From the NCBI GenBank assembly GCA_021776135.1, contig JAJFGL010000007.1, positions 1 to 58,898 on the forward strand: DNA of 58,898 bases, written 5' to 3'. This DNA is from Kiloniellaceae bacterium. GTDB taxonomy: Bacteria > Pseudomonadota > Alphaproteobacteria > Kiloniellales > J153. Under the pieces are notes generated by a model that searched no databases, was not told the origin of the DNA, and saw only the letters and a list, made by a program, of their open reading frames with translations. Both the position numbers and the translations under genes were made by a program. The stretch's first letter is position 1. Every line of letters starts with the position of its first letter. Below are positions 8,118-9,315 of this stretch, one piece after another.

Positions 8118-8444
8118 TTGGCCGACGACTTAACTTTCGGTAGCTCCCAGGAGACCCCGCCAAGCCCCGCCGCTTCGGTCGCGGTGGCCCTGGAAGGCGG
8201 CGGCGGTTCGCGCCGCGCGCCCCGGGTGACCGCGTCGGGACGGGGCGCGGTGGCCGAGCAAATTCTGGAAATCGCGTTCGAGCGGGGCATCAAGGTGCGC
8301 AGCGACGCGGACTTGGCCGAAATCCTGGGCGCGGTCGAGCTGGATAGCGAAATTCCCCTGGAGGCCCTGGCCGCCGTCGCCGAAATCCTATCCTACGTGT
8401 ACCGGACTCAAGACGCACCGGTGGGGGAAGCTTCTCAATCGTGA
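8118..8444 (+). CDS. Orphan FlhB C-terminal-domain-like protein
   Basis: The 108-residue product is soluble. From about residue 45 it matches the end of the FlhB cytoplasmic domain: AVAEQILEIAFERGIKVRSD and ELDSEIPLEALAAVAEILSY parallel the post-cleavage part of the flhB product here (SVELDKEIPAEHFKAVAEVI). It has no membrane helices and no NPTH site. Stand-alone FlhB-like proteins are known in other flagellated bacteria and may substitute for the cleaved domain in export control; that role here is inferred. The start is uncertain: TTG at 8118 (AGGA upstream) or GTG at 8181. It overlaps the next gene by 4 bp. Confidence 0.8.
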   Translation: MADDLTFGSSQETPPSPAASVAVALEGGGGSRRAPRVTASGRGAVAEQILEIAFERGIKVRSDADLAEILGAVELDSEIPLEALAAVAEILSYVYRTQDAPVGEASQS

Positions 8445-8710
8445 CCTCAACGCGCGAAATTTCAGCCGAGGTGGACGCCATTAGCGCCGCGATCCAGCGC
8501 GCCCTCGATTCCGGTGGGACAATCGATGTGTGCGCGGTCGAGGAACGGGTCGGCAAGCTTTGCGGCCAACTGGGTACTTTGGATGGTGGCGAAGGCGCCG
8601 CACTCCGGCCGCGTCTTGAGGCCTTGATCGAGGAATTCGCCCGCTTGGGCACCTTAATCGAAACCCGGCTGGAGAATATGCGCGGCGACTTAGGGCCTGT
8701 GGACACTTAG
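8441..8710 (+). CDS. Small flagellar-locus protein of unknown function
   Basis: An 89-residue, acidic, mostly helical protein starting at a GTG that overlaps the stop of the FlhB-like gene. It has no recognised domain. The helix LRPRLEALIEEFARLGTLIE, followed by TRLENM, suggests a coiled-coil or FliT-like export-chaperone fold, but this is a guess from composition and context. The last eight residues (GDLGPVDT) and the stop codon are encoded by the left arm of the inverted-repeat element at 8690–8961, so the natural C-terminus may have been replaced. Confidence 0.6.
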   Translation: MTSTREISAEVDAISAAIQRALDSGGTIDVCAVEERVGKLCGQLGTLDGGEGAALRPRLEALIEEFARLGTLIETRLENMRGDLGPVDT

Positions 8711-8961
8711 GATGCCGTCGCGGTTGGGCCAAGATGACGCGAGGTTAGGAGCGAGGACGCAGGACATGCTGAGCATATTCAAGGACGAGCGACGCGGCCT
8801 CGCGTCATCTTGGCCCAATCCCGCTGGGACGGGTCGTATTATCCCACCCGCCGCGTCGCGAACGGCTTGTGGGGGGCCTGCCACACGGCGCCGTCCGGCT
8901 CCTAACGGGTGGGATAATCCGATCCCGCCACGACGGCATCCTAAGTGTCCACAGGCCCTAA
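8690..8961. repeat. 272-bp three-stem inverted-repeat element (MITE-like)
   Basis: Two perfect 31-bp arms (8690–8720 and 8931–8961) face each other. Inside are a perfect 21-bp inverted repeat (8724–8744 with 8798–8818) and a perfect 13-bp one (8838–8850 with 8906–8918). The whole could fold as a cloverleaf: an outer stem holding two hairpins with loops of 53 and 55 bases. The ends read TTAGGG and CCCTAA, so TA target duplication is possible. Open frames cross it on both strands but have no protein-like features. It ends 21 bp before fliO. Confidence 0.9.
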
Positions 8962-8982
8962 ACCGGATTGGGGGTTAGCTCC

Positions 8983-9315
8983 ATGGAGCTGGAGACTTAC
9001 CTGCGCTTCGTGGCCATGCTCGCCCTGGTTTTGGCTCTGATCGCCATCTGCGCCTGGGCCATCCGCCGATTCGGTCTGGGCGGCGCCCTGGCGGCCACCA
9101 AGGGCGGAACGAAACGCCTGGCCATCGTCGAGGTCAAGGTCATCGACCCCAGGCGCAAACTGGTTCTCCTGCGCCAGGACGGGAAGGAACATCTGGTCTT
9201 GCTGGGGCCCACGCAAGATCTCTTGCTCGACAGCGGCATCGCGCCGCGCACATCCGATGCCGGGGCCCGCAAGGAGCCCGGCGGCGCGCCCCGGCCCGAT
9301 CTTTCCGCGACATGA
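8983..9315 (+). CDS. fliO: Flagellar biosynthesis protein FliO
   Basis: FliO is a small bitopic membrane protein that helps FliP assemble into the export gate. From the ATG at 8983 (GGGGG upstream) the 110-residue product has one helix near the N-terminus (FVAMLALVLALIAICAWAIR). A basic cytoplasmic domain follows, with the FliO-like stretch KLVLLRQDGKEHLVLLGPTQ and LLLDSGI. The stop overlaps the fliP start (ATGA), which supports the identity. An in-frame TTG at 8968 is a less likely start. Its upstream region is taken up by the repeat element. Confidence 0.85.
   Translation: MELETYLRFVAMLALVLALIAICAWAIRRFGLGGALAATKGGTKRLAIVEVKVIDPRRKLVLLRQDGKEHLVLLGPTQDLLLDSGIAPRTSDAGARKEPGGAPRPDLSAT

Follow-up and report, generated by a model that had tools for sequence, protein, structure and literature searches.

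A miniature inverted-repeat element with a covarying fold lies mostly in sense orientation between co-directional genes

A 266-bp repeat between flagellar genes of a Kiloniellaceae bacterium is a miniature inverted-repeat transposable element (MITE) by the defining features tested: it occurs in copies, has terminal inverted repeats (TIRs) with a TA duplication, is absent from an empty site and carries no transposase. We consider it probable that this is a non-autonomous MITE of the IS5 family, IS427 group, bearing a conserved structured RNA whose sense fold is favoured inside operons. Positions below refer to the window, the whole stretch of 58,898 nucleotides that was analysed.

Results

The element and its gene context

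The initial annotation had described three perfect inverted repeats of 31, 21 and 13 bp with loops of 53 and 55 nucleotides, and all of these were found again in place. An outer repeat (8690-8723/8928-8961, perfect core 31 bp) encloses the other two, which lie at 8719-8744/8798-8823 (core 21 bp, 53 nt between the arms) and 8831-8850/8906-8925 (core 13 bp, 55 nt between the arms). The RNA folding energy of the repeat region was -188.4 kcal/mol, compared with -120.2 +/- 5.2 kcal/mol for 200 shuffled sequences (z = -13.1), none of which was equally stable. The repeats do span the 272 bp (8690-8961) originally assigned to the element, but alignment of copies placed its true boundaries at 8693 and 8958, giving 266 bp with TA on either side and the end pattern TA/GGGCCTGTKGACA...TGTCMACAGGCCC/TA. 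The outer TTA and TAA are target bases, of which TA is duplicated, and the outer stem proper has 28 bp (Table 1). No transposase gene and no sufficiently long open frame was found inside the 266 bp.

The gene starting at 8441 receives its TAG stop from the element, as had been noted, together with five terminal codons (8693-8707) rather than eight. The gap to the fliO-like gene is short, as also noted, and measures 24 nt from the true end of the element to the ATG at 8983 instead of 21 bp. In the genomes G001 and G003 the site lacks the element and the upstream gene is 24 codons longer, as seen in the same-genus relatives L243 and L244. By this comparison, insertion in the window was accompanied by loss of 24 C-terminal codons of this flagellar-region gene. 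The window copy sits outside any stop codon, and the neighbouring gene is shortened instead. Neither a sigma-70-type promoter nor an intrinsic terminator was found in 8600-9100, and the 8441-gene protein had no relatives in viral contigs. Near the contig end (58766-58859) the window holds another inverted repeat of 20 bp (95%) with 54 nt between its arms, which is not among the matches to the element.

Table 1. Parts of the element and neighbouring genes, in window coordinates
Feature	Position	Strand	Basis or remark
Left TA of target duplication	8691..8692	.	aligned copies
Whole MITE, 266 bp	8693..8958	+	aligned copies; sense strand defined by conserved loops
Outer stem A, left arm (left terminal inverted repeat)	8693..8720	+	26/28 pairs changed on both sides
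Stem B (hairpin 1), 5' arm	8724..8743	+	19/20 pairs changed on both sides
Loop segment C (partner C', 8898-8905)	8745..8752	+	8/8 pairs in window copy
Tandem G.A motif, 5' strand (GGAC)	8755..8758	+	flanking pairs broken in 0/67 and 1/67
Small hairpin D in loop 1, carries conserved ATG	8762..8780	+	helix 100% paired, 67 copies
Tandem G.A motif, 3' strand (GGAC)	8783..8786	+	aligned copies
Loop segment E (partner E', 8850-8859)	8789..8798	+	10/10 pairs in window copy
Stem B, 3' arm	8799..8818	+	pairs with 5' arm
Small linker hairpin F	8819..8829	+	98.5% of cells paired; 3/4 pairs changed on both sides
Stem G (hairpin 2), 5' arm	8831..8849	+	15/19 pairs changed on both sides; one mismatch among 19 in window copy
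Loop segment E'	8850..8859	+	pairs with E
Small hairpin H in loop 2, ends approximate	8869..8886	+	5/6 pairs changed on both sides
Loop segment C'	8898..8905	+	pairs with C
Stem G, 3' arm	8907..8925	+	pairs with 5' arm
Outer stem A, right arm (right terminal inverted repeat)	8931..8958	+	pairs with left arm
Right TA of target duplication	8959..8960	.	aligned copies
Upstream gene, truncated, 89 codons	8441..8710	+	no Pfam match; last five codons and stop from the element
Downstream fliO-like gene	8983..9315	+	Pfam FliO E 0.0022, under its cut-off; followed by fliP (E 1.5e-80)

Copies and empty sites

DNA search located the element at no fewer than 29 places in the host genome (3.96 Mb, 70 contigs), at least 17 of these reaching 238 nt; both counts are lower bounds, as 40 of 51 candidates were scored, and the 30 loci listed include two pieces of one copy. 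Many host copies are located at contig ends, as expected because repeats break assembly. Among 57 related genomes (host excluded) 21 matched; G002, of the same genus, gave 32 matches, G003 one and G001 none. Of the 67 full-length copies, 51 have TA at both ends, 13 at one end and 3 at neither, with end-finding having given TA a small bonus. Copy L002 lies between metG and tatD (names read from translations), and its insertion point is a stop codon with the TA duplicated. Four of five relatives (G001, G002, G003 and G005) matched this site and all were continuous across the metG-tatD gap; G008 gave no match. The earlier suggestions that the element moved recently and that its ends fit TA-targeting transposition are supported.

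Several derived forms were observed. At G000:C51:118699-118757 (L083, about 1498-1557) a short palindromic derivative consists of little beyond the two terminal repeats and carries the change GTGTACAC in both arms; similar short palindromic forms occur at C4:45734-45817 and about C20:54240-54286. Solo terminal repeats (TAGGGYCTGTKGACA...) run into unique sequence at L088, L089, L090, L091, L093, L094 and L095, where the pattern used detected no second end within ~4 kb. In L014, L017, L026, L027 and L109, 27-nt tandem expansions in hairpin 1 repeat segment E together with part of stem B, with two extra units in L027.

A fold shared by divergent copies

Copies were extracted by their arms and a loop motif and aligned by sequence only. 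From 135 raw hits on both strands, 79 oriented elements were obtained; 68 were 255-300 nt long, and alignment A1 contains 67 of these, L125 being excluded for mis-set ends. The reference structure was taken from the window copy and hairpin H from L036. In the 67 copies, 92.5% of the 6604 structure cells are paired, compared with 73.9% when partners are shuffled and 37.2-41.7% when the structure is slid, a comparison in which selection by matching arms and a structure from two copies favour stem A and the unslid version. Both sides have changed in 72 of 99 pairs across these divergent full-length copies, the covariation score is 0.481 compared with 0.153 after shuffling, and none of five fold measures was matched by any of 500 shuffles. 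The arms match within each copy yet vary between copies, and even strongly different outer arms (L041 and L056 compared with L001) still pair. By these measures the copies are shown to share a predicted fold maintained through compensatory change.

The linker between the two inner hairpins is itself a small hairpin, and the junction therefore has four arms; the cloverleaf originally drawn with three stems stands as to those stems and gains a fourth arm. A UUCG tetraloop in the linker hairpin was considered as an RNA hallmark and rejected, since other subfamilies show a triloop register. The view that the element is more ordered than a simple palindromic MITE is supported. Further copies and covariation, whose absence would have spoken against a mobile or RNA element according to the initial annotation, were both found: copies occur in the host and its relatives, and the stems covary.

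Conserved loops predicted to pair with each other

The loops are the conserved part of the element. Loop 1 contains a nearly invariant G-A/G-A flanked by two pairs. The first is GC in 44 copies, CG in 20 and GU in 3, and is broken in none of 67; the second is CG in 33 and GC in 33, and is broken in one. Swaps of these flanking pairs recur across different subfamilies, and the G.A positions are kept in 33 and 30 of the 36 members of a wider set. This pattern identifies the loop-1 motif as a predicted tandem G.A internal loop. The ATG in hairpin D is present in 67/67 copies.

Loops 1 and 2 are also mutually complementary, with 8 C-C' pairs and 10 E-E' pairs in the window copy. Within the order, both sides change at 0/8 C-C' pairs and 4/10 E-E' pairs. 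The distant-member set (A3) combines 22 of the 67 copies with 14 distant hits out of 17 retrieved, L269, L276 and L282 being omitted. With these members, 3 of 8 C-C' pairs change on both sides, among them UA 17/AU 10 and AU 20/CG 10, as do 5 of 10 E-E' pairs, the best being GC 19/AU 11. E-E' is the weaker helix, with 78.1% of cells paired. In this test the percentage paired, the cells changed and the covariation score were unmatched by any of 500 shuffles, but 39 of 500 shuffles reached the number of pairs changed on both sides and 65 of 500 reached the number of pair types.

Sense orientation and stop-codon sites

A codon model was used to score the flanking frames; it had been trained on long frames found in the window and in the longer loci. 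Merging orthologous insertions reduced the 67 copies to 63 sites, 54 of which have a scorable gene on both sides. Between co-directional genes the element lies in sense at 37 of these and in antisense at 4; another 8 sites are convergent and 5 divergent. The 37:4 bias corresponds to a binomial p of 1e-7, and because cells and copies are related by descent the p-values given here overstate the significance. Stricter score cut-offs gave 32:4 and 27:3, and sites with the palindromic target CTAG gave 12:1. One antisense call, L239, was kept although its reading on the downstream side is odd and of low complexity.

None of the 37 sense sites represents a single gene split by the element. In 20 of them the upstream stop is TA/G, with its last base provided by the first base of the element, and in 3 further sense sites a stop codon ends immediately before the element. 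Where the upstream frame reaches the element (24 sense sites), 20 stop at TA/G versus 8 expected for one frame in three (p = 7e-7). In 29 of the 37, the earliest start codon available to the next gene lies no more than 25 nt away. Gene pairs around the copies, named from their translations, include metG-tatD, livG-livF type, kdsA-eno and mlaE-mlaF type.

Outside the main set the orientation data are small and mixed. Elements of f187 and G379 gave 4:0 in favour of sense (15 sites scored at the same cut-off, with a codon model not trained for them), and those of G775 and G673 gave 5:0, with a further antisense site that scored under the cut-off. In G703, where the script did not find the ends of the single-hairpin elements, the count was 1:2 sense to antisense, or 2:2 with one weaker call.

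Mismatches in the long stems and in the loop helices

Selection acting on an RNA strand should leave G.U mismatches better tolerated than A.C mismatches. The G.U:A.C mismatch counts are 61:70 in stem A, 37:40 in stem B and 18:26 in stem G (without its fixed G.T column), and the base pairs of subfamily consensus sequences (85% identity) gave 15:19 for A and 7:7 for B. G.U is likewise not in excess in helices E (15:22) and H (3:8); an excess over A.C is present only in loop helices C (36:2) and D (9:0). Stem symmetry alone is therefore no proof of RNA-level selection. In the long stems it may be kept at the DNA level, through a transposase that needs two alike ends or through hairpin-templated correction, while the loops may be under sense-strand constraint. 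The stem signal would also be blurred if copies decay once inserted. Stronger signs of an RNA role than stem symmetry come from the loops, which are conserved and covary, and from the sense orientation. The suggestion of a structured RNA is plausible.

A likely transposase vehicle

In genomes of the same order, the tips of the element occur at TA beside transposase loci of the IS5 family, IS427 group, with 0-1 substitutions at L211, L214 and L197. L211 and L214 are PF13340 loci, the latter in G002, and at L197 a DDE_Tnp_1 frame adjoins the tip. At L214/L220, from the host's genus, both tips are present ~850 bp apart; L209 and L216 have tips beside transposases with a looser match. The sequence common to the element and the IS427-type loci is GGGYCTGTKGA. 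For comparison, the part of PMC3281130 that covers a Paracoccus set gives 11 rows of IS427-group elements, all 832-865 bp and 10 of 11 with 2-bp duplications. Since IS427-group loci in same-order genomes share the tips at TA, we infer that the element is likely mobilised in trans by an IS427-type transposase.

A parent insertion sequence (IS) inside the host genome was considered and rejected: the tips are absent from 9/9 host transposase loci inspected, and the host PF13340 loci have other ends. Four host IS427-type loci (L097-L100, G000) carry the different ends GGTCACATACCC and GGTTGAGAACC, which also follow CTA.

Distribution among bacteria

Among the named GTDB genomes, 73 stretches show the loop pattern; most carry the titles Kiloniellales, Kiloniellaceae, Pelagibius or Rhodospirillales, six come from Denitrobaculum tricleocarpae and one from Oleispirillum naphthae. 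Of 384 other genomes in the class, 2 contain the loop pattern, which had no match in viral contigs; the element had no match in plasmids. At L127 a Pelagibius-type copy appears in a metagenome-assembled genome titled Anaerolineae from the same sampling series, perhaps through a binning error.

With a hairpin-1 covariance model of 98 positions (E <= 0.001 per genome), hits were obtained in 9 of 199 and 17 of 397 other genomes of the phylum, in two overlapping samples with the host excluded. Two-hairpin elements with outer arms of at least 18/22 pairs account for 10 of 12 hits in family f187, outside the host's class, and 4 of 4 in G379, of the same class; the hit in G012 lacks outer arms of that kind. 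With outer arms of at least 21/24 pairs they account for 6 of 7 hits in G775 and 2 of 3 in G673, both of the same class. In G703, outside the host's class, ten shorter elements (L286-L295) have the loop-1 core with other ends, as read by eye, and no clear second hairpin. Several of the ten end like GAACCTATCTCAGTAGG, and together they perhaps form a sister family.

No Rfam family was found inside the elements of 17 loci scanned at a permissive E, the only matches being of microRNA type and far under their cut-offs. An Rfam rpsB sRNA (RF01815, 41.3 bits, cut-off 40) lies ~60 nt downstream of a G018 copy (L034, 1828-1935).

Discussion

A probable structured RNA favoured in sense, and rival readings

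Under the reading we favour, an IS427-type transposase would act on the element's ends in trans and insert it into the TA of YTAR, often within a TAG or TAA stop codon. The element's first G would re-create TAG, so that the upstream protein stays whole, and the element would then be transcribed within the operon mRNA. The sense RNA would form a cloverleaf with the upstream stop and the following start brought near each other at its base, and its loop domains would pair with each other. Our guess is that the sense fold is favoured because it is low-cost inside operons, with less polarity or mRNA loss than the antisense; the purine-rich, folded and inter-paired sense loops may offer Rho and nucleases less than the antisense strand does. 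A bolder and less likely proposal, put forward tentatively, is a mobile pseudoknotted RNA (loop-paired hairpins, tandem G.A) that would have lasted in at least two classes of one phylum because it rides on the changing ends of different DDE insertion sequences, and would be selected as sense RNA in operon mRNAs, for example by blunting polarity or through other RNA activity. There is a real chance that the RNA of the element represents a new functional class.

The main functional rival, by analogy with ERIC and Correia/NEMIS, is an RNA processing signal: RNase III would cut the long stems, or an RNase E site would be exposed, uncoupling the cistrons, with orientation mattering as it does for ERIC. 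The near-perfect stems of 28 bp and 20 bp and the sense orientation are in line with this, as are precedents in excerpts of the published accounts, where Correia RNA is cut by RNase III at its TIRs and orientation is crucial for ERIC. Yet stem cleavage alone should be independent of orientation, and cleavage does not require conserved loops; we regard such a signal as possible but doubtful.

A plain MITE without an RNA role seems to us unlikely. In quasipalindrome correction, hairpin-templated replication errors copy one arm onto the other, and this process and a shared transposase would keep the arms alike, the orientation being a side effect. It would follow that G.U mismatches are about as common as A.C mismatches in all three stems (A, B and G), that arms agree inside a copy but differ among copies, that hairpin-only derivatives exist and that the G703 type lacks an orientation bias. 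What a plain MITE leaves unexplained is the conservation of the loops with isolated covarying pairs around a nearly invariant tandem G.A, the loop-loop covariation and the excess of sense sites.

It is improbable that the element acts as a mini-cistron, in which translation would start at the loop-1 ATG, stop at the re-created right-end TAG or TAA, usually 64 codons on, and feed the next gene. The invariant ATG, an SD-like AGGAG/GAGGA upstream of it (by eye) and a frame that, in 38 of 67 copies, runs to a stop at the right-hand TA(G/A) are what such a cistron would predict. The ATG frame stays open up to the element end in 46 of 67 copies, against 41 and 34 for two other frames; its openness is not special, and a small conserved protein was rejected as a candidate. 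Against a mini-cistron, too, the f187 members have a different sequence replacing the ATG hairpin, and the peptide varies between subfamilies. A recombinase substrate, the other suggestion of the initial annotation besides a structured RNA, whether integron attC-like or another site-specific recombination site, is extremely improbable, as it has only a symmetric single-strand fold to recommend it, whereas the exact TA duplications are scattered over many sites rather than at one specific integrase site and the tips are those of a DDE transposase group.

Comparison with known repeats

MITEs are often viewed as passive IS leftovers with a simple hairpin; here the ends change and an intricate loop structure persists across classes, which raises the question of whether a selfish DNA element can carry an RNA that protects or steers host mRNA. 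The element differs from the MITEs compared in its loop-loop-paired cloverleaf, in being conserved from one class to another and in facing one way where it lies between co-directional genes. For an RNA unmatched by Rfam in the 17 loci scanned, the analysis also yields an alignment with a covariance model. In the literature search no listing of this element was recognised, and the terms "stop codon" and "orientation" are absent from the review PMC10969869.

IS427-group insertion sequences and their derived MITEs resemble the element in the 2-bp TA duplication and, at the same-order loci, in their tips; unlike these insertion sequences, the element has no transposase, and it has a conserved structured core while its outer arms differ between subfamilies. 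The remaining likenesses are drawn from excerpts of the published descriptions. ERIC/RU-1 of enterobacteria is likewise intergenic, with TA termini and a co-transcribed hairpin RNA whose orientation matters in Yersinia; it is a 127-bp stem loop, whereas the element has 266 bp, a four-arm junction, loop-loop pairing and other hosts, a distinction made by length and fold rather than by sequence. The CIR repeats of Caulobacter and Brucella are also alphaproteobacterial and have two inverted-repeat arms, a linker and a conserved structure, but they carry GANTC in the loop and have neither a closing stem between the ends nor TIRs, and are set apart here by description and not by sequence. Correia/NEMIS of Neisseria shares the MITE form, TIRs and TA termini, and its RNA stems are cut by RNase III; it is a stem loop with promoter and IHF motifs, in contrast to a cloverleaf for which the search for a sigma-70-type promoter was negative. 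BOX and RUP of Streptococcus pneumoniae are alike in MITE TIRs that pair in the folded RNA and in a suspected effect on co-transcribed genes, and differ in sequence, modules and hosts, RUP being tied to IS630-Spn1.
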